DNA of 64,000 nucleotides from Ctena decussata (taxonomy: Eukaryota > Mollusca > Bivalvia > Lucinida > Lucinidae), in assembly GCA_963989385.1 (NCBI GenBank), contig OZ022513.1, forward strand, positions 23,377,928-23,441,927, read 5' to 3'. The position numbers and the translations under genes are program-made. Below are positions 10,166 through 55,583 of this stretch, in pieces. Numbering within the stretch: the first letter of the stretch is position 1; every line of letters starts with the position of its first letter. The notes under the pieces were generated by a model, which saw only the letters and a list, made by a program, of their open reading frames with translations, was not told where the DNA came from and searched no databases.

Positions 10166-12397
10166 TATGCCCCCAATTTAACTGTGGGGACATATTGGTT
10201 TGGGCCTGTCCGTCTGTCAGTCCGTCTGTCCGCTATCTGTAAGTCAAGAACTGTAAGAGCTAGGAGCTTCGAACTTTATACACATGATCAGTATGAAAAA
10301 TAAGCGAACACGTGTTTCTTTTTCGGGGATCACATATTTTCAGTGTTATGCCCCTTTTTCGACTTAGCCTGTGGAACCTTGTGAACAAAATATCTCAAGG
10401 ACCCCTGATGCTAGGATCATGACGTTTTGCAGGATGACAATGCCAAAGGTGTAGATGACCTGATTAACTTTTGATAAAAAATGTGAATTTTTGACCGAGT
10501 TAAGCCCCTTTTCGACTTAATGCATTGTAAGCCTATGTAACCTTGTGAACAAAATATCTCAAGAACCCCTGATGCTAGGAGCATGATTTTTTGCAGGGAA
10601 ATACTGCCTAAGGTGTTGATGACCTGATTAACTTTTGAAAAAAAATATACATTTTTGACCGAGTTATGCCCCTTTTCGACTTGCATTAAAGCCTATGGTA
10701 CAAAGGTACCCTTACATACAGTCAAGAACAGTAAGAGCTAGGAACTTGAAACTTCATACACATGATAAGTATGGAAAATAAACAGACCCGTATTTTTTTT
10801 ATTTTTCTGCCTGTCATGTATTTCCAGAGTAATGCCCCTTTTTCGACTTCAACTTTGGAACCTTGTGAAATATCTCAAGAACCCCTGATGCTATGATCAT
10901 GAGATTTTGCAGGATGACAATGCTCAAGGTGTAGATGACCTGAATAACTTTTGAAACAAAATCGTGAATTTTGACCAAGGTATGCCCTTTTTCGACTTAA
11001 AGCATTGTAAGCCAATGGAACCTTGTGAACAAAATATCTGGAATCCCTGATGCTAGGATCATGATTTTTGCAGGAAGATACTGCCTGTGGTGTAGATGAC
11101 TAGATAAACTTTTGAAAAAAAATCGTAAATTTTTGACTGAGTTAAGCCCCTTTTACGACTTAGTGCATTGAAGCCTATGGTACAAAGGTACCTTTACATG
11201 CAGTCAAGAACCGTAAGAGCTAGGAACTTGAAACTTCATAATCAGTATCAAAAATAAGCGAATACATGTTGTTGTTTTTTTCCGCGGGTCACATATTTCC
11301 AGAGTTATGCCCCTTTTTCGACTTAGCCTGTGGAACCTTGTGAACAAAATATCTCAAGTACCCCTGATGCTAGGATCATGAGGTTTTGCAGGTTGACAAT
11401 GCCCGAGGTGTAGATGACCTGATTAACTTTTGAGAAAGAAAAGTTCGTGAATTTTTGACCGAGTTATGCCCCCTTTTCGACTTAAAGCATTGTAAGCCTA
11501 TGGAACCTTGTGAACAAAATATCTGGAGAACCCCTGATGCTAGGATCATGATTTTTAGCAGGAAGATTCTGCCTGTGGTGTAGATGACCTAATTAACTTT
11601 TGAAAAAAAAATCATAAATTTTTGACCGAGTAAAGCCCCTTTTACAACTTAGTGCATTGAAGCCTATGGTACAAAGGTAACTTCACATACAGTCAAGAAT
11701 CGTAAGAGCTAGGAACTTGAAACTTTATACACATGATCAGTTTGAAAAAATAAGCGAACACTTTTTTTTCTTTTTTTCTTCGTGGGTCATATATTTCCAG
11801 AGTTATGCCCCTTTTGTAACTTAGCCAGTGGAACCTTGTGAAAAAAATATCTCAAGAACCCCTGATGCTAGGATCATGTGGTTTTGCAGGATGACAATGC
11901 CAAAGGTGTAGATGACCTTATTAATTTTTTGGGGAAAAAATGTGAATTTTTGACCGAGTTATGCCCCTTTTTCGACTTAATGCATTGTTAGCCTATGGAA
12001 CCTTGTGAACAAAATATCTGGAGAACCCCTGATGCTAGGATCATGATTTTTTTTTGCAGGAAGATACCGCCTATGGTGTAGATGACCTGATTAACTTTTG
12101 AAAAAAAATCGTGAATGTTTGATCGAGTTATGCCCATTTTTCAACTTAGTGCATTATTTGCCTATGAAACCTTGTGAACAAAATATCTGGAGAACTCCTG
12201 ATGCTAGGATCATGATCTTTTGCAGGAAGATATTGCCTAAGGTTTAGATGACCTGATAAACTTTCGAAAACAATTCGTAAATTTTTGACTGAGTTAAGCC
12301 CCTTTTTCGACTTAGTGCATTGAAGCTATGGCACAAAGGTATAAGCATTATTGGATGAACCTTCTTTAGAGGCAAGCATATGGTAGGGGGCATATTG
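10166..12397. mobile_element. 2.2-kb element with tandem core, TATGCCCCC/GGGGGCATA ends
   Basis: It opens TATGCCCCCAATTTAACTGT and closes GGTAGGGGGCATA. The core repeats CCCTGATGCTAGGATCATGA about nine times at alternating spacings of ~165 and ~320 bp, giving a ~480-bp higher unit with GACCGAGTTATGCCCCTTTT. No coding capacity; the mobilisation mechanism is unknown (possibly Helitron-like). Confidence 0.7.
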
Positions 12398-46179: not shown

Positions 46180-46756
46180 CATGGCCCACTGATGTTCAAT
46201 GCAATATTTCAACCAAATGTACCAAGTGGTTCTGAAATAGCTGGTTTTGTTGTTTTTGCCATTTTTAAAAATGGCAGCATTCTTGGATTTTCGACCTGGC
46301 TGTATTTTACCATTCTGAAGTGTTGCACTCTGTTCATGCTTTATATGAAATTTGAGAACTATGGGTGCAATGGTTTTGGAGAAATCAATCAAACAGACTT
46401 TAACACCAGGGTTAATGTAAATGTGATCTTTTTTTGTGCAATGGCCAACATCTTGGATTCTCGACCTGGCTGAAGCACTGCAGTCTGGTCATGCTCCATA
46501 TGAAATTTAAGAACCATGGGTGCAGTGACTTGGGAGAAATTAATTAAATAGACTTTAATGCCAGGGTTAACGTAAATGTGAGCGCTTTTTTGTTGCAATG
46601 GCAAACATCTTGGATTCTAGACCTGACTGAATTTTACCATTCTGAAGTGTTGCAGTCTGGTCATGCTCCATATAAAATTTGAGAACCATGGGTGCTGTGG
46701 TTTTAGAGAAATCAATTAAATAGACTTTAACGCCAGGGTTAATGTTATGTAAATGT
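46180..46756. repeat. Tandem array (~165-bp unit) split by the LTR element
   Basis: Units with CTTGGATT(C/T)TCGACCTGGCTG recur at about 46282, 46451 and 46612. The next unit (51813-51930) lies on the other side of the retroelement. It is an intron or upstream part of the minus-strand gene. Confidence 0.75.
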
Positions 46757-47004
46757 TGTAGTGACGCATCGTCTTGGCCTGACTACCGGGTCCGGATTTA
46801 AGTACCGGGGATTAGTAGCACTAGAAGCAAATCAAAGGGTGATAATTATCTACTTCCCCCAGACATGCGCAGTTAGGTGAATTACAGCTGAGCGCCTTGC
46901 ACGAATCCAAAGCGGTGACAGACAGCGGTCTATATTTCCATCCCTCTTGCCTTGCTTCTAATCTACAAGGGAATTGTATAGTTTATAAGGGGTAAAAACA
47001 CAAT
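46757..47004 (+). repeat. 5' LTR
   Basis: 248 bp, starting TGTAGTGACGCATCG and ending AAAAACACAAT. Compared with the 3' LTR by eye there are seven substitutions and no indels (about 97.2% identity), so the insertion is fairly recent. The short length is usual for small gypsy-type elements. Confidence 0.93.
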
Positions 47005-47006
47005 AA

Positions 47007-47024
47007 TGGCGACGAGGTAAACTT
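47007..47024 (+). promoter_or_regulatory. Primer-binding site
   Basis: TGGCGACGAGGTAAACTT begins two bases after the 5' LTR. TGG complements a tRNA CCA end, and TGGCGAC starts are known in Mag/SURL-like gypsy elements. The tRNA was not identified. Confidence 0.75.
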
Positions 47025-47306
47025 GGCAGAAGCATTTGTATTTTGTTATTTTTCGCCTTTTCCCCCATTGACATTCGTCCTGTGTTTTTTCGAACACAAA
47101 CTTTGACAAAGGAGGGAATAGGTCGCCAGTTCTAGAATAACAAATTAACAACATTGCAAGCTTCTACGCTATACACACAGAGCCCTTGAAAGTCTCGACC
47201 TATAAATTCTAAATTTATCCAGTTTTGGTCGAAATTAGAAAGCAGGCGTAAGGTTAACATAGAGGGTCAGTTTTACTTGGGAATATTACAGGGAATTTTA
47301 CTTCTT

Positions 47307-47423
47307 GTGGAGTCTTACAGACACACAATAATAGTCAAATAAGATTTCTTGTGGAGTCTTGTAGACACATGAGTGATTTATTTGACTAAAACGTTATTGC
47401 TTGTGGAGTCTTGTAGACACACT
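47307..47423 (+). promoter_or_regulatory. Three leader hairpins of the TTGTA-loop family
   Basis: Hairpins at 47307-47326, 47351-47370 and 47404-47423. Each reads GTG-GA-GTC-loop-GAC-A-CAC (last base T in the second) with loop TTGTA, or TTACA in the first. They are spaced 44 and 53 bp in the leader between PBS and first ORF, a usual place for packaging signals. Confidence 0.75.
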
Positions 47424-47521
47424 GGATTGTTCAAATAAGACATATAGGTGATTCATTTGCCATTACCCCACCACAATCCTAATAGCAATAAAGTCAGTAT
47501 TATCCCTGTACGTCTGTCACC

Positions 47522-47692
47522 ATGTCGATAAACGTCAACACGGCAACTACAGAGGAACTGAAACAGATTCCAGGAGTGGGTGAAAAAGTTGCTCAGCTTC
47601 TTATTCAGTTCAGAGAAGTTTATGGAGTTATAAAAAGAGAGGCTTTGAATTTGGCTCTTCGGCGACACCTGTCAGATGAAGTCCTGAGATGA
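47522..47692 (+). CDS. Helix-hairpin-helix mini-protein (56 aa) of the retroelement
   Basis: ATG at 47522, TGA at 47690-47692, 56 residues. NVNTATTEELKQIPGVGEKV is a clear helix-hairpin-helix motif of the ComEA type (N-T-A-T-x-x-E-L then a GVGEK hairpin), a fold that binds the DNA or RNA backbone without sequence preference. The rest is basic and helical (REALNLALRRHLSDEVLR). It lies between the leader hairpins and gag, and its stop overlaps the gag ATG as ATGA. This could allow termination-reinitiation, a -1 shift, or mark a broken ancestral fusion. Its role in the element, such as genome binding, is inference. Confidence 0.85.
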   Translation: MSINVNTATTEELKQIPGVGEKVAQLLIQFREVYGVIKREALNLALRRHLSDEVLR

Positions 47693-50139
47693 TAGACTTC
47701 TCAGTGCCAAAGCTAGATGATCCATTCGATATTGATCTAAGCTGTCTCCCATCAGTGCCGAAGAATGATTCATGGGAACCCTTGGTGAGCTTTGCCTACC
47801 AGACAACAGCAAGAAGGTCAAGGTCACCACATGGACCAGAGTCAGAAGTTTGGCATCCACTGACATTGCCATCAGCATTTGAGCCAAGAAAAGAGTCAAT
47901 GTCACCAGTTCGAGAGAGTTTCTCCATGTTGGCATCAAAGTTGACAGATCAGGAAGCATCCGCTATGCTAGCAACAGCTTCGAGTATCCATGAGCCAGAA
48001 GAATCAAGTTCTTGTAGAACTGATTCCAGGGCGGTATCTCATGGTGATCAAGATGATACGAAACACGCTGAAAGGAAGACACCAGAGCCATCCATGTCAA
48101 GAGGGTCAGAGGGAGGTATTGGGTCTTGTAGATCCAGATCTTTTAGGGCACACAGATCTTCCTCAAGGTCATCGTCTAGTCAGAGACGTTCAAGAAAACA
48201 CTCCCCTAAACATACAAGGACGCATAGGCGTCATGGTAAAAGGTCAAGGTCACACTCTGGGTCACTGTCAGTGTCAAGGTCAAACTCAGGGTCAGTGTCA
48301 AGGTCAAGGTCACAGTCAAAACGGTCGAAGTCAAAGTGCAGAAGACCAAAGAAAAGACCATCGAGGTCAAGATCAAGGTCAGCTTCTGGGTCACGATCCA
48401 CTTTAAGGTCAAGGTCAAAACAGAGTCATTCTAAAAAATCAGATTCCAGCAATGTCAAGAAAAAGGATAAGAGCTCCTCAAAGAAAACAGACTCTGAAGT
48501 TAAGAAGAAAGAGGACAGAAGTAGATCAAGGTCATCTTCAAGTTCAAAGTCAGCTCATTACCATTCAAGGAAATCAGACTCTAAAGTTGTGAAGAAAAGG
48601 GAAAGAAGTTCCTCTAGGTCATCTTCAAGGTCAAAGTCAGTTGAGCGTCGTTCAAGAAATTCTGACGATAAAAATATGAAAAAGAAACATTATTCTTCAA
48701 GGTCAAGGTCAGTTGAACGCCACTCGAGAAAATCTGACACAAAGGTTAAAAAGAAAAAGAAGCATGATTCTTCAAGGTCAACTTCACGGTCCAAGTCAGT
48801 GAGACGAAGTTCAAGAAAACACGGCTCTAAGAAAAATAAGTCGCCGAAAATGATACACAAACACTCCAGATCAAGTTCGAGATCAACTTCTAGATCATCG
48901 TCGAGGTCAGCCTCAAGGTCATCAAGTTCACATTCCAAATCTCATAAGAGAAGGGTTAAATTAAAAACAAAACATGATAGATCAAGGATGGTGTACAAAC
49001 ATAAACGTCGATCGTCATCTAGTTCAAGGTCAACGTCAAGGTCATCATCAAGGTCACATTCTAGATCTTCCCATAAAAGGAGAGTTAAGACAAGGCGTGC
49101 TAAATCAAAGATACATAAACGTCATACATCATCTAGTTCAGAATCACAATCAAGATCTCCTTCAAGGTCAAGGTCACGTAAATCAAAAGGAAGATCAAGG
49201 TCACAGAAAACAAAAAGAAGATCAAGAAAACATCATCACTTATCATGTTCAAAGTCAGATACAGATTCTTCGGTGGATAGATATTGTTCAAAGCATGGAG
49301 ATCCCCGAAAACACCCTAAAGCTTTGCGTTTTGATGGAAAGTCAAATTGGTTATCTTTTAAAAAGAAGTTTGATAGCTACAGAAAAGTGATGAAATGGTC
49401 AGAGGCAGAGAGCAAAGATTATCTGATGTGGAGTTTGGAAGGAAAAGCCCTTGATTTTTTCACCATAACAACATCTGATATGGAAAAATATTCTTTTCGA
49501 AAAATAATGAAGAAGTTAGAGGCTAGGTTTGGCGTAAAAGAGTTGACAGAAACCTCGAAGGCAAGATTTCGTCAAGCTTTTCAGAAGCAGGATGAATCAT
49601 TAGAAGACTGGGCGGACCGTGTAATGACTCTTGCTACTCCAGCGTTTGTAGATTTGCCAGAAGAGCACCTGAAACAAGAAGCCATTGCTAGATTTTGCCA
49701 GGGTTGTATTGACAGGGATGCAGCTAAACATGCTTGTTTCGAACATCCTAAAACCATGGAAGAGGCATTAAATTTGGTAAAACACCATCAATATATTTCT
49801 CAAGCCGTTGATGGAAAGAAAGCGAAGAAAGAAAATGAAGCTTCAGTCAATGCTGTGCAATCCCCATCAGAAGCTAGGATTGAACAACTTATTACTTCAG
49901 CATTAAAAGATTTCGCAGAAAAACTACAGACAAGCTCTCAATCCAGTTGTCAATCTTCTTCAGACACAGAACGGAATTCAGACAGTAAGAAGAAAAGTTC
50001 CATTCAGTGCTTTTTCTGTAAGAAATTCGGACATATGAAGAAAGATTGCAGAGTCTATCAAGCATGGCTTAGAAAAAAGCAGGAGAGCAAGTCAGAAGAT
50101 TCAGAGGACCAAGTTCGGGATAGGAATCCCACACAGTAG
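47689..50139 (+). CDS. gag: Gag with N-terminal RS domain and CCHC zinc knuckle
   Basis: 816 residues, starting at the ATG overlapping the previous stop; an in-frame TGA lies 12 bases upstream. Residues 1-145 are acidic and mixed. Residues about 147-525 are an exceptionally long Arg/Ser domain (RSRSRS, SRSSSRS, Lys/Arg runs) like those of SR splicing factors. Residues about 547-700 (RFDGKSNWLSFKKKFDSY..., LEARFGVKE, RFRQAFQKQDESLEDWADRV) look like the capsid region of gypsy-type Gag. A single CX2CX4HX4C knuckle uses Cys774, Cys777, His782 and Cys787. The frame ends at TAG before any protease. Intact coding capacity and near-identical LTRs suggest recent activity. Gag would normally coat and package element RNA; the RS domain suggests a nuclear or splicing-factor-linked step (inference). 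Confidence 0.92.
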   Translation: MIDFSVPKLDDPFDIDLSCLPSVPKNDSWEPLVSFAYQTTARRSRSPHGPESEVWHPLTLPSAFEPRKESMSPVRESFSMLASKLTDQEASAMLATASSIHEPEESSSCRTDSRAVSHGDQDDTKHAERKTPEPSMSRGSEGGIGSCRSRSFRAHRSSSRSSSSQRRSRKHSPKHTRTHRRHGKRSRSHSGSLSVSRSNSGSVSRSRSQSKRSKSKCRRPKKRPSRSRSRSASGSRSTLRSRSKQSHSKKSDSSNVKKKDKSSSKKTDSEVKKKEDRSRSRSSSSSKSAHYHSRKSDSKVVKKRERSSSRSSSRSKSVERRSRNSDDKNMKKKHYSSRSRSVERHSRKSDTKVKKKKKHDSSRSTSRSKSVRRSSRKHGSKKNKSPKMIHKHSRSSSRSTSRSSSRSASRSSSSHSKSHKRRVKLKTKHDRSRMVYKHKRRSSSSSRSTSRSSSRSHSRSSHKRRVKTRRAKSKIHKRHTSSSSESQSRSPSRSRSRKSKGRSRSQKTKRRSRKHHHLSCSKSDTDSSVDRYCSKHGDPRKHPKALRFDGKSNWLSFKKKFDSYRKVMKWSEAESKDYLMWSLEGKALDFFTITTSDMEKYSFRKIMKKLEARFGVKELTETSKARFRQAFQKQDESLEDWADRVMTLATPAFVDLPEEHLKQEAIARFCQGCIDRDAAKHACFEHPKTMEEALNLVKHHQYISQAVDGKKAKKENEASVNAVQSPSEARIEQLITSALKDFAEKLQTSSQSSCQSSSDTERNSDSKKKSSIQCFFCKKFGHMKKDCRVYQAWLRKKQESKSEDSEDQVRDRNPTQ
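48001..48026 (+). promoter_or_regulatory. TTGTA-loop hairpin inside gag
   Basis: GAATC-A-AGTTC-TTGTA-GAACT-GATTC: a ten-pair perfect stem with one bulged A and the same TTGTA loop as the untranslated hairpins, embedded in gag codons. A second, GGGTC-TTGTA-GATCC, lies at 48121-48135. Confidence 0.6.
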
Positions 50140-50279
50140 AGGAAAGGCCTTTAAAGTAAACAGGGGAGGAAAGAGTACAGGTACATCAGGTGAAAACTGT
50201 TGAGTTGAATCTTCACAGTTCAGCCAGATCACTCAAGTTTAACTGAGTTGTTGAAGTACAGGAAACAGGAAAGGTTATC

Positions 50280-50452
50280 GGTGTCAGGAAATACCTTCAG
50301 TGGTTACCAGTGTTAGGAATTACCTTTGGAACCTGTCCAAGAATCATCCAAAGACTTCAACCAGGGTGATGAGACTGTGATGTCAGAAGTACAGAAAGAA
50401 GGTTATCGGTGTCAGGAAATACCTTCAGAGGTCACCGGTGTCAGGAATCACC
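50280..50452 (+). promoter_or_regulatory. Four short AGGAA-loop hairpins
   Basis: At 50280-50295, 50310-50323, 50408-50423 and 50437-50452 the sequence GGTGT-CAGGAA-ATACC or a variant recurs. Stem bases change (GGTG/CACC, GGTGT/ATACC) while AGGAA stays in the loop. The stems are 3-5 pairs, so the case is weaker than for the TTGTA set. Confidence 0.4.
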
Positions 50453-50525
50453 TGTGGAGCCTGCGCAGACTGCTACATCCGGATTTCACGACTACTCTGT
50501 CATGATGGATGAATGGATGCTCGCT

Positions 50526-51440
50526 CCCAGACTTGTAGTCAGGTAAAGAGATCCTCAAGAAAAGAACCTCGAAGGTTACGACAGATGGATGCTTGCTCCT
50601 GGACTTGTAGTCAGGGAAAGAGATCCCCACAGAGCGAGGTTACTCTGCTTTCCACCAGATCTGTCCGAGCCGAGACTTGTAGTCAGGCGAGGAAGTTTTA
50701 AAAGAAAGCTTCGTGGACGGCAGTAATCCAATCCAGTTGAGTTGGGCTTGTAGCTCGCTCAAGAGAGTAGTCATGTCAACATCCAGGTGAGCTGGGGGTG
50801 TAGCTCGCTCATGTCAAGTTCCAGTTGAGGTGGGCTTGTAGCTCGCTCATGTCAAATTCCAGTTGAGTTGGGCTTGTAGCTCACTCATGTCAAGATCCAG
50901 TCGAGTGGGGCTTGTAGCTCTAAGCTCACTCATGCGTTTCATGTGGCGGTTATGTCACCATCCAGTCAACAAAGCAATCCGGATGTCAACAGTTTGAGCG
51001 GACATGTTGTCTGCTCAGAAGTCAGTGACAGACTTGTAGTTTGTCGTTTGGCCAGTTTCAGCAGAGAATCCAGATGGCATGTCTTGTAGTCGGTCATCTG
51101 TCAGCTTCAACAGAGAATCCAGATGATATGTCTTGTAGTCTGTCATCTGTCAGCTTCAACAGAGAACCCAGATGATATGTCTTGTAGTCTGTCATCTGTC
51201 AGCTTCAACAGAGAACCCGAATGATATGTCTTGTAGTCTGTCATCTGTCTAGTATCAACAGATATCCAGAATTCCAGATGATATGTCTTGTAGTCTGTCA
51301 TCTGTCCAGTATAAACAGATATCCAGTGACAGACTTGTAGTTTGTCAAAAGAAGTCAACGACAGACTTGTAGTTTGTCAACAGAAGTCATCGACGAGCCT
51401 ATGGTTTGTCAAGAAGATTCCTGTGGACTTGTAGTTCACA
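50526..51440 (+). promoter_or_regulatory. Array of ~17 hairpins with conserved TTGTA loop in the 3' UTR
   Basis: CTTGTAG occurs 16 times here, each with flanks that can pair: 50526, 50597, 50669, 50739, 50827, 50865, 50903, 51027, 51071, 51120, 51169, 51221, 51275, 51328, 51360, 51422 (starts), plus a GTGTA-loop copy at 50789. Examples are GACAGAC-TTGTA-GTTTGTC, TGTGGAC-TTGTA-GTTCACA, GCC-GA-GAC-TTGTA-GTC-A-GGC and GAG-TTG-GGC-TTGTA-GCT-CG-CTC; CAGATGA/TCATCTG closes several. The loop stays constant while stems differ and compensate, so RNA structure appears to be under selection. Part of the array (51060-51310) is a recent ~50-bp tandem amplification. Confidence 0.75.
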
Positions 51441-51556
51441 ACAGAGTCCTGGTTGATGTAAGCTACACCAAAGAGGTAAGGTATTGTGTGTGGACCTATG
51501 GCTAGCACATCTCTTTTCGGCTTCCCAGCCTGGGTGGAACCTTTCATCATAAAGTT

Positions 51557-51564
51557 GGGAGGAG
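51557..51564 (+). promoter_or_regulatory. Polypurine tract
   Basis: GGGAGGAG lies directly before the TGTAGTG start of the 3' LTR, the expected place for the plus-strand primer. Confidence 0.75.
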
Positions 51565-51812
51565 TGTAGTGACGCATCGTCTTGGCCTGACTACCGGGTC
51601 CGGATGTAAGTACCGGGGATTAGTAGCACTAGAAGCAAATCAAAGGGTGATAATTATCTACTTCCGCCAGACATGCGCAGTTAGGTGAATTACAGCTGAG
51701 CGCCTTGTACAAATCCAAAGCGGTGACAGACAGCGGTCTCAATTTCCATCCCTCTTGCCTTGCTTCTAAGCTACAAGGGAATTGTATAGTTTATAAGGGG
51801 TAAAAACACAAT
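51565..51812 (+). repeat. 3' LTR
   Basis: 248 bp, same ends as the 5' copy; followed by the AATGT target duplication. Confidence 0.93.
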
Positions 51813-51992
51813 AATGTTAACGGGACTGTTTTGCAATGGTGGCCATCTTGGCTTCTCGACCTGGCTAAATTTTATCATTCTGAAGAGTTGCAGTCTAGTC
51901 ATGCTCCATATGAAATTTGAGCACACCTTGCTAAAGCAGGTGCAACAAAAACACTGTCACTTGCCGACACCACATAAGGAAACCTTTCAATG

Positions 51993-52554
51993 GGGTGAGT
52001 CTAATTACCACAGACCACCACAGACCAGTACAGTCCACCACAGACTTCACCACAGACCTCAATACAGATTATCATAGACCCTAAAATGACATTTAAATGA
52101 TTAGAACATAAGAAATATATAAAATTTGGATTTTTTTTAGAAAACTTTGGGTATAATTTTTTGTTATAAAAAAAATATATTATGTACCACAGACTAGCAC
52201 AGACCTCAATACAGATTATCATTCATCTTCAAAAATAACAATGTTGAGCATACAGAAAAATATAATATTTAATTTGACCTTTTTTTTGAAAATTTTGTGT
52301 TAAGTATTAAATTTTATGTACATGTATAATGAATATGTAGACTGGATTAACAATAACATGATTTTTACTGTCTTTCAAAAAAGTTTTTGGATCCTTTAAT
52401 ATGGCAGTTTTACATTTTGTTCTTAAAACTGTTATTTTAGAGGGTGTATGATAATCTGCATTTAAATGTCAGTGGTAGTCTGTGGTGAAGTCTGTGGTCA
52501 TCTGTGGTGCTCTGTGGTGGTAGTCTGTGGTGATCTGTGGTATTTAGACTCACC
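51993..52554. mobile_element. Foldback element with CCACAGAC-repeat termini
   Basis: GGGTGAGTCTAATTACCACA at the left and TGTGGTATTTAGACTCACCC at the right. Inside each end ACCACAGAC (or its inverse) repeats 5-7 times; the AT-rich middle is non-coding. TTTCAATG / TTTCAACA flank it, a possible 8-bp duplication. Confidence 0.75.
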
Positions 52555-52674
52555 CTTTCAACATAAGAATAATGCAAAAAGGTGGTTTCTTGCCTATCTT
52601 CACATTGTCACAGAACAGAGCTAGGCAAAATAAGAAAACTGAATAAAAAACTAAAACCAGAGGACCAATGGTCC

Positions 52675-55583
52675 TGTAGCTCACCTGACACTTGGTCCTG
52701 GTATATATTTTAATGCTTTTATACATGTATATAGCACCAGGGCAGGGGCAGATAACCCCCTTCCCTTAGGGATTAATGTTGAGTCCTAATTCTATATACC
52801 AAGCCACAAGGTCATTGGGCCTTTGGTTCTGGACAAAGATTTCTGAAGGGTTTTTATCATATATGGGTGTGGCCACCATGTTCATGTGACCATGACCATC
52901 TGAACAAACTTTGATTCCTTTGACCCAGTATTAAAGCTCCATATGAAATACAGTAATCATTTGTATAAACTATGATGGGCCTGAGTGCCCAATGCTACAT
53001 ACTGGTACCAAGTTTCAAGGTTATAGGCCTTTCAGTTTTCGAGAAAAAGACGTTTGAAGAGTTTTTACCATATATGGGCATGGTGCCAATCTCGGTCAAG
53101 TGACCAAGACCATCTGAACAAACTATGGTTCCTCTAAGCCGGTGAAGCTCCATATGAAATATGGCTTCAATTGACCCAAGTGGCCGCTGAGAAGATGTTT
53201 GAAAATGTTGACGGGTGACAGAATCTCAATGACCTTGTACAAAAGTCAAAGAATGACCTTGACCTTTAACGACAAAATATCTTCATCTGGTCATTCAGTT
53301 AACCATATATACCAAATATTGTACCTTAGACTTAAATAGTTTCTGAAAAATCCACTGTTTTAGCATTTTCCCATATAAAAGCCTACATAACGTACCAAAG
53401 CTGACAGTGTCATAAATTAGGTCAAGGTCAATGCACGATCATTTGTATAAACTATGATGGGCCTGAGTGCCCTAAGCTACATACCAAGTTTCAAGGTCAT
53501 ACGCCTTTTGGTTCTGGAGAAGAAGACTTTGAAGGGTTTTTACCATATACGGGCATGGCGGCCATCTTGGTCAAGACCCCCGAGAACAAACTTTTACTCC
53601 CCTATCACACTTAGACTCCGTATGAAATTTTGATTCAATCAGACCAGTGGTTTCAGAGGAGAAGATGTTTTGAAAATCTTGATGACGGACAGATTGGCAA
53701 AATGACCTTGACCTTCAGTGACACAATATCTTCATCTGGACATTTAGTTGACCATATATACCACGTATTGTACCTAAGACTTAAATAGTTTCTGAGAAAT
53801 CCTCTGTATAAGCGTTTTCCCATATAAAAGCCTAACGTACCAAAGTTGACCATGTCGTAAATTAGGTTAAGGTCAACGCAAGGTCATCATTTGTATAAAC
53901 TATGATGGGCCCGCATGCCCGATGCTACATACCAAGTTGTAAGGTCATAGGCCTTTTGGTTCTGGAGAAGAAGATTTTCGAAGGTCTTTACCATATATGG
54001 GCATGGCAGCCATCTTGGTCATGTGATCCAACCCGGGTATTAACTTTAGTTCTCCCATCCCACTGAGACACCATATGAAATTTGGCTTCAATCTCCCCTG
54101 TGGTTTCAGAGGAGAAGATGTTTGAAAATCTTGACGACGGATGGTCCGACGGAACAACCTTGACCTTTAGTATCATATCTTCATCTGGTAATTAGTCGAC
54201 CATGTATACAACATATTGTACCTTAGACTTAAATAGTTTCTGAGAAATCCACTGTTTAAGCGTTTTCCCATGTAAATGCCTAACGTACCAAAGTTGACCA
54301 TGCCGTAAATTAGGTCAAGGTCAACGCAAGGTCATGATTTGTACAAACTATGATGGGCCCGCATGCCCGATGCTACATACCAAGTTTCAAGGTCATAGGT
54401 CTTTTGGTTCTGGAGAAGAAAATTTTTGAAGGGTTTTAACCATATATGGGCGTGGCGGCCATCTTGGTCATGTGACCCAGATACCCGGAACAAACTTTCG
54501 TTCCCCCAACCCATGGAGGCTCTATATGAAATTTGGCTTCAATCGACCCAGTGGTTTCAGAGGAGAAGATGTTTGAAAATCTTGAAGATGGATGGTCGGA
54601 CGAAATGACCTTGACCTTGATTGACATAATATCTTCATCTGGTCATTTAGTTGACCATGTATACCAAGTATTAAACCTTAGACTTAAATAGTTTCCGAGA
54701 AATCCACTGTTTAAGCGTTTTTCCATATAAAAGCCTAACGTACCAAAGTTGACCATGCCGTAAATTAGGTCAAAGTCAACGCAAGGTCATGATTTGTACA
54801 AACAATGATGGGCCCGCATGCCCGATGCTACATACCAAGTTTCAAGGTTATAGGCCTTTTGGTTCTGGAGAAGAAAATTTTTGAAGGGTTTTAACCATAT
54901 ATGGGCGTGGCGGCCATCTTGGTTATGTGACCCAGATACCCGGAACAAACTTTCGTTCCCCCAACCCATGGAGACTCTTTATGAAATTTGGCTTCAATCG
55001 GCCCAGTGGTTTCAGAGGAGAAGATGTTTGAAAATCTTGAAGACGGATGGTGTGACGGAATGACCTTGACCTTGATTGACATAATATCTTCATCTGGTCA
55101 TTTAGTCGACCATGTATACCAAGTATTAAACCTTAGACTTAAATAGTTTCCGAGAAATCCACTGTTTAAGCGTTTTTCCATATAAAAGCCTAACATACCA
55201 AAGTTGACCATGCCGTAAATTAGGTCAAGGTCAACGCAAGGTCATGATTTGTATAAACTACGATGGGCCCGCATGCCCAATGCTACATACCAAGTTTCAA
55301 GGTCATAGGCCTTTTGGTTCTGGAGAAGAAGATTTTTGAAGGGTTTTTACCATATATGGGCGTGGCGGCCATCTTGGTCATGTGACCCAGATACCCGGAA
55401 CAAACTTTCGTTCCCCCGACCTAGGTAGGCTCCATATGAAATATGGCTTCAATAGGCCCAGTGGTTTCAGAGAAGAAGATGTTTGAAAATGTTGACGACG
55501 GACGACGGACGGACGGACGGACGACGGATGCCTGGCTATACTATAAGCTCACCTATGGGCCTAAAGGCTCAGGCGAGCTAAAA
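52675..55583 (-). mobile_element. 2.9-kb element with ~455-bp tandem units, AGCTCACCTGA ends
   Basis: Units start near 53440, 53885, 54330, 54785 and 55240 with TTGTACAAACTATGATGGGC, CAAGTTTCAAGGTCATAGGC, GGCGGCCATCTTGGTCATGT and AGGTCAAGGTCAACGCAAGG. Left end TAGCTCACCTGA, right end a hairpin and TCAGGCGAGCTA. The inverse family member is at 5708. Small open frames inside repeat once per unit and are not genes. Confidence 0.8.

Follow-up and report, generated by a model that had tools for sequence, protein, structure and literature searches.

The window, a stretch of 64,000 nucleotides of Ctena decussata DNA, contains an LTR retrotransposon in which TTGTA recurs between short complementary flanks, raising the question of whether these sites form a true array of RNA hairpins and, if so, what reads them. 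An earlier note had described about twenty such hairpins, with one constant loop and compensating stems, spread through a gag-only RNA, and had suggested that a protein recognises them.

The window element is an LTR element of 5.06 kb on the + strand, with LTRs, a primer binding site (PBS) and gag, and without pol (Table 1). The PBS presumably matches the 3′ end of tRNA-Ser(GCT). The target duplication of the window copy is of 4 bp (ATGT, 46753-46756 and 51814-51817), and an exact 4-bp duplication was found for 28 of 37 copies, the window included. These copies were obtained by searching the source genome (1.66 Gb) with an LTR-plus-PBS query and scoring the best 40 of 181 candidates; 39 stretches were read, 36 with two LTRs were kept (L026, L030 and L040 were dropped), and the window copy brought the set to 37. 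The LTR pairs of the 36 copies are 0.964-1.0 identical, with a value of 1.0 in 12 of them; the sampled copies are young, the sample being the best-scored places. Between the Gag ORF and the 3′ LTR, the window copy shows ~1.4 kb without a long ORF, and for the 20 of 37 copies whose gag end could be located, the longest + strand stop-free stretch beyond it measures 69-172 aa, which makes the family gag-only and TR-GAG-like. Elsewhere in the window, an inverted repeat at 51993-52555, with arms of 33 nt that are 94% complementary and 497 nt apart, looks like a small DNA transposon, and two tandem arrays are present at 53252-55502 (unit of ~455 nt, 5.0 copies) and 10242-12155 (unit of ~498 nt, 3.9 copies).

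The PF14893 match of the Gag ORF lies above its cut-off, and the zf-CCHC match (E 0.0016) lies below its own. Among solved structures, the best sequence match of Gag is PNMA2 (E 7e-5), and a fold search with the predicted capsid region (mean pLDDT 70.6, pTM 0.38) placed the PNMA2 and Arc capsids on top, with low TM-scores. A Gag with a PNMA/Arc-like capsid is in keeping with the Ty3/gypsy (Metaviridae) lineage. In the window copy, the helix-hairpin-helix (HhH) and Gag ORFs are in two frames and share an ATGA overlap (47689-47692). HhH and CCHC were found within one ORF in 16 of the 36 other copies by regular expression, and PF12836 and PF14893 occur in one protein in many of the relatives listed, indicating that the separate HhH protein of the earlier note exists in the window copy but is not general. 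The named protein relatives come from the bivalves Pecten, Dreissena and Ruditapes, and no relative of the window Gag was found in viral contigs.

CTTGTAG occurs at 21 sites on the + strand of the window, 20 of them inside the LTR element, and CTACAAG at four, two of them in the LTRs. Our counts agree with those given before: three leader hairpins, one with a TTACA loop, two in gag, 16 CTTGTAG sites 3′ of gag and one GTGTA variant. The statement that all are closed by C-G holds for the CTTGTAG sites but not for the GTGTA copy near 50798. At least two further contiguous pairs lie below the C-G at 15 of the 20 CTTGTAG sites of the window element, and the inner mismatch announced for the CAGATGA-type copies was recovered as a T.T directly below the C-G in five copies. 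Hairpins F and G are two additional to the earlier inventory. Tandem amplification, visible in array spacings of 38, 49 and 72 nt, accounts for part of the hairpin count; the argument rests on distinct hairpin classes.

Table 1. Positions of the element, its ORFs and its hairpins in the window, and of Gag matches followed by a protease
Feature	Position	Strand	Remarks
5′ LTR (TGTAG...ACAATA)	46757..47005	+	252-nt direct repeat, 97%; LTR pair identity 0.972
PBS, begins TGGCGACGAGG	47007..47017	+	Identical 18 nt after LTR in 34/37 copies
Three leader hairpins, TGTG-GA-GTC [loop] GAC-A-CACA or near	47306..47423	+	Cores 47314 (TTACA), 47358, 47410 (TTGTA)
HhH ORF	47522..47692	+	PF12836 E 9.3e-10; other frame than Gag in window copy
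Gag ORF: RS-rich region, PNMA/Arc-type capsid, CCHC knuckle	47689..50139	+	PF14893 E 4.7e-9
gag hairpin 1, encodes SCR	48002..48025, core 48011	+	AATCA-AGTTC/GAACT-GATT, one extra 5′ A; aligned site in C7
gag hairpin 2, encodes SCR	48112..48144, core 48125	+	Aligned site in C4
Class A hairpins, n=3	50524..50689, cores 50532, 50604, 50676	+	Homologous copies 3′ of pol in C7
Class B hairpins	50741..50925, cores 50747, 50835, 50873, 50911	+	Plus degenerate GTGTA copy near 50798
Class C hairpins	Within 51027..51378, cores 51033, 51334, 51366	+	
Class D hairpins	Within 51027..51378, cores 51083, 51132, 51181, 51230, 51287	+	T.T mismatch below C-G
Hairpin F	51392..51410, core CCTATGG at 51398	+	7-bp stem
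Hairpin E	51422..51440	+	TGTGGAC[TTGTA]GTTCACA
Hairpin G	51487..51510, core CCTATGG at 51495	+	Mismatch directly below core in window copy
3′ LTR	51565..51813	+	Same 252-nt direct repeat, 97%
Gag matches with protease 3′	C14:30913336-30916041; C7:37520841-37523675; C14:15603338-15604210; C4:15627394-15629787		

Hairpins F and G carry C and G at loop positions 1 and 5, where the others carry T and A, suggesting that the pentaloop is probably a triloop. The TTGTA loop first described thus stands as a near-constant tip, but a Y-R-Y triloop describes it better; its three nucleotides are mostly UGU or UAU, and U-A or C-G probably closes them on top of a C-G pair. A fuzzy search that left the loop free was run on the 37 copies; of the 446 sites it found, 440 have C...G and 444 a Y-R-Y triloop. 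The third loop nucleotide is either G or A, CTTATAG accounting for 20 of the 40 leader sites and 20 of the 95 sites of class B. Over the 37 copies, F-type loops read CTATG (35), TTATG (1) and CTACG (1), and G-type loops CTATG (21), CTGTG (10) and CTGCG (1), the latter type not being found in five copies; of nine C/G-type sites that the fuzzy search grouped with class C, two are F-type and seven F-like. When 20 classes were compared, the triloop was UGU in 17, UAU in two and UAC in one, and the closing pair U-A in 18 and C-G in two; the C-G below it, found in 20 of 20, is partly a matter of selection since the sites were picked by their core. The third pair is variable (UA 6, UU 6, AU 4, GU 2, GC 1, AC 1), the fourth is GC in eight, GU in seven, UA in four and AU in one, and a T.T mismatch adjoins the C-G pair in six of the 20 classes. 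Going down from the tip, the first asymmetric interruption of the stem, loop or bulge, has more nucleotides 5′ than 3′ in 14 of 19 classes. In four others (W_B, W_C, W_E and W_F) the excess is 3′ and follows seven contiguous pairs; the remaining class has none.

TTGTA pentaloops with a stem of at least four pairs number ten in the element and zero in the rest of the window, and 300 dinucleotide shuffles yielded a mean of 0.11 and a maximum of 2. Among all pentaloops with a stem of at least five pairs in the 37 copies, TTGTA ranks first (289) and TTGAG second (71). The internal regions of the 37 copies contain CTT[GA]TAG 799 times on the + strand and three times on the minus strand, for a base-composition expectation of 21.1 per strand. 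As a control, at least 120 viral-contig stretches were chosen by their triple-core spacing pattern, and 930 CTTGTAG sites were counted among the matches listed. At least two pairs lie below the C-G in 80% of the sites of element copies (n=722) vs 15% of these control sites, and at least four pairs in 40% vs 4%. The best listed viral stretches, which look like repeats, form a counter-case with eight (L129), seven and six such sites; the exact leader hairpin was found in none of the viral contigs. Rfam gave no match at E≤1 over 46500-52000, and six matches at E≤10 over 50100-51560, all sub-threshold and on the minus strand. The hairpin array is real, and it is wider than first described.

To what extent are the stems maintained as stems? 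For eight window classes, the summed pairing energy with their own 3′ flanks is the best of all 40,320 permutations, and with 19 classes drawn from the window element, C4, C7 and C14, none of 100,000 random permutations came up to the observed sum. These 19 classes are not fully independent, since the C4 leader classes are alike, and in just eight of them does the own 3′ flank outrank every other partner (worst rank, 5 of 19). In an alignment of 11 window hairpins (10 distinct), whose structure was drawn from those same sequences, 95% of the cells are paired vs 76.7% after shuffling, and covariation is 0.650 vs 0.268, a value reached by 0 of 500 shuffles. Moreover, when each of 230 unique sites was compared with 20 versions carrying a shuffled 3′ flank, 229 folded better than the median version and 139 better than every one of them. 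The folding check proposed in the earlier note gave a mixed answer: when the leader plus the final 1425 nt were folded freely in 16 copies, the closing C-G had a probability above 0.5 at 34% of 305 sites vs 5% of 1190 control C.....G, yet its median probability was 0.25, which points to competing pairings at many sites. The two gag sites do not stand out in 7-mer conservation, 41% and 29% of windows, respectively, reaching as high a score; the copies being young, within-family conservation adds little. Permutations and alignment shuffles support a near-constant tip with covarying stems, as had been claimed, in the element and its relatives. Stems kept merely as repeat sequence, the outcome named beforehand as counting against the claim, were not seen between classes; within the family, the copies are young. 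Dispersed stem-loops, a common tip and stem changes compensated in relatives, all observed here, are among the features of a packaging-signal system.

A query with the whole of P0061, a protein relative, gave just Gag matches among 34 scored candidates, and the four best matches of its protease piece sit 0.5-0.9 kb 3′ of Gag matches (Table 1). The protease search identified pieces L168, L169, L172 and L173 of C4, C7 and C14 as gag-pol junction and pol start. In C7, which belongs to the same genome as the window element, Pfam analysis of stop-free stretches revealed PR and RT (piece L168) and RNase H and integrase (separate piece L176); from these two separate pieces, the order is PR-RT-RNase H-IN, as in Ty3/gypsy (Metaviridae). 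C7 is 74% identical to the window element in the LTR and 72-90%, in pieces, in the leader, and it shares the class A region, there 3′ of pol (70-91% in pieces). Within the 9.0 kb read, C7 has 18 CTT[GA]TAG sites on the + strand and two on the minus strand; the 18 are distributed over the leader (5), gag (1), linker (1), pol frame (4) and further 3′ (7), with none in the last 800 nt. C7 was read in part, C7:37521801-37523599 lying outside the 9.0 kb, and its 3′ LTR was not found up to 37530800. One C7 pol hairpin combines a 10-bp perfect stem with a TGT triloop and is the sole triloop stem of at least seven Watson-Crick pairs in five pieces. Since C7 encodes PR, RT, RNase H and integrase and carries the hairpins, these are not confined to gag-only elements: the term gag-only is right for the window family but does not extend to the hairpins.

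ORF-internal hairpins encode SCR, ACS, SCS, AYS or LVV. A CTTATAG hairpin in pol at C7:37526211 (L176) overlaps the codons of IAYSS, which we take to be a conserved RNase H motif; because of this overlap, this hairpin may be a coincidence. The SCR tripeptide is in no relative listed with PF13975; protease-bearing C7 has one. In 53 selected protein relatives, the surroundings of SCR are equally conserved. C4 is a more distant relative with a separate linker array. In the 3.95 kb read, it has 13 CTT[GA]TAG sites on the + strand and one on the minus strand, with four hairpins in the leader, two in gag, which encode SCR, and seven in a 57-nt array in the gag-pro linker; the second gag hairpin is the site aligned to window gag hairpin 2. 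The C4 leader and linker hairpin stretches gave no blastn match to the window element. TGGCGACGAG is found upstream of the leader in C7 and C4 too; in the C14 piece, the initial 400 nt did not yield it. The C4 linker array (L169, minus strand, about 15626757-15627099) encodes a 19-aa repeat. P0061 has peptide repeats of its own, of similar size, between CCHC and protease, and these perhaps encode an RNA array too.

The hairpins are thus a structure seen by covariation, specific to the + strand and shared with pol-bearing relatives. A near-constant tip on variable stems suggests a protein reading the tip and the helix shape, and it is fair to infer such a reader, the array being a candidate set of dispersed protein-binding sites on the genomic RNA. 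One reader for both element types would imply either similar Gags or a host protein, and a host RNA-binding protein explains the same data as Gag. The element's own Gag appears to be the most likely option. It is favoured by the spread of the sites along the RNA, by their number (about twenty in the window element, no fewer than 18 in C7, which was read in part) and by their multiplication in non-coding sequence of the pol-less element. We propose, with a probability of roughly 0.52, that the hairpins are binding sites for Gag dispersed along the RNA, that they serve packaging or assembly in the manner of the packaging signals of RNA viruses, and that a pol-less relative has kept and multiplied them. 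More tentatively, and at somewhat less than even odds, they could constitute a packaging code along the whole RNA, in which about twenty hairpins with the same tip, in UTRs, gag and pol, would be read by a PNMA/Arc-like Gag and be common to a pol-bearing element and to a gag-only relative multiplying them to compete for particles.

On this reading, the sites lie on the genomic RNA of a lineage of Ty3/gypsy-type retrotransposons with PNMA/Arc-like Gag, and the unit is a short stem with a UGU or UAU triloop and a U-A or C-G over a C-G, often with an extra nucleotide on the 5′ side below. Gag might read the tips through its CCHC knuckle or its basic RS region, and about twenty sites per RNA would mark this RNA for packaging and nucleate assembly. 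The window element would be a pol-less relative of a pol-bearing element in which the sites were kept and multiplied, and the multiplied sites may let the gag-only RNA compete for particles with pol from that relative. Both the packaging role and the supply of pol in trans are what we infer from the array and its distribution.

Could a Roquin- or Regnase-1-like host protein that binds hairpins be the reader instead, leading to decay, granule recruitment or sequestration of that protein? The constitutive decay element (CDE) of Roquin, as defined in the passages available from PMC6294493 and PMC5603727, has the same Y-R-Y triloop and Y-R closing pair, and Regnase-1 sites have a Y-R-Y triloop on a stem of 3-7 nt (same passages of PMC5603727), in agreement with the Y-R-Y at 444 of 446 fuzzy sites and the Y-R closing pair in 20 of 20 core-picked classes. 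However, a passage of PMC6294493 reports the absence of a stem sequence preference for Roquin, whereas the hairpins here retain C...G at 440 of 446 fuzzy sites and show G-C or G-U as their fourth pair in 15 of 20 classes. The relaxed CDE consensus given there calls for a Watson-Crick stem of 6-8 bp, and just three of the 20 classes have at least six Watson-Crick pairs with YRN. The window hairpins further differ from the CDE by their C-G second pair, G-U and T.T in the stems, 5′ excess and site number; wobble and mismatched stems and so many sites fit a Roquin-type reader poorly, and about twenty decay elements would seemingly harm the element, so that we regard such a reader as unlikely. Another host RNA-binding protein, acting in export, localisation or translation, would account for the same structural data, and the RS-rich Gag may hint at nuclear steps; we nevertheless consider it quite unlikely, with no known motif recovered by Rfam at E≤1 and only sub-threshold minus-strand matches at E≤10. 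No paper mentioning UUGUA together with a pentaloop was found in the open-licence PMC literature.

It is improbable that the hairpins are functionless, plain tandem-repeat sequence with inverted symmetry. The 38, 49 and 72 nt arrays do supply many copies, the gag sites are unremarkable in 7-mer conservation and the listed viral control stretches hold up to eight such sites, but this reading is at odds with single, non-tandem hairpins in leader, gag and pol whose stems and codons differ, with covariation between classes and families, and with a minus strand nearly devoid of sites. Contacts between RNAs, the loops pairing with CTACAAG of the LTR or serving as kissing dimer sites, seem very improbable. 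This exact complement of the core lies at 46963 and 51771 of the window, and all 37 copies have it in the 5′ LTR. It is absent, however, from upstream stretches of C7 (270 nt), C4 (420 nt) and C14 (260 nt), elements whose hairpins have the same tip, and LTR-loop pairing is disfavoured.

Recognition of the array by Gag would resemble packaging signal-mediated assembly as known for MS2, STNV, parechovirus and HBV pregenomic RNA, with dispersed stem-loops, a common tip and variable stems. The MS2 recognition motif includes an A in a 5′ bulge, according to a passage of PMC6281560, and an extra 5′-side nucleotide is frequent here. Unlike in those viruses, the system is that of an LTR retrotransposon; its capsid is of the Gag type, and a pol-less relative shares the candidate binding sites. 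For Gag-like proteins, PMC6281560 does no more than suggest packaging-signal assembly. Ty1 and Ty3 also rely on cis-acting RNA with Gag selecting it, as proposed here, but in the available part of PMC4974528 their packaging sequences have no precise definition yet, multiple scattered sites being likely, and no comparable array is described. Nor was such an array in LTR elements found in print in the open-licence PMC literature. The window element is like the TR-GAG elements, which are gag-only LTR retrotransposons, in having LTRs, a PBS and gag without pol; the TR-GAG papers found concern plants, and the window element differs by its PNMA-like Gag and its hairpin array.

The means by which LTR retrotransposons single out their own RNA are poorly defined (PMC4974528), and the animal PNMA and Arc capsids are related to such Gags. 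A near-constant 7-nt core, young copies and two element types lend themselves to a direct binding test, and the array opens an approach to the possible use of another element's particles by a pol-less one.
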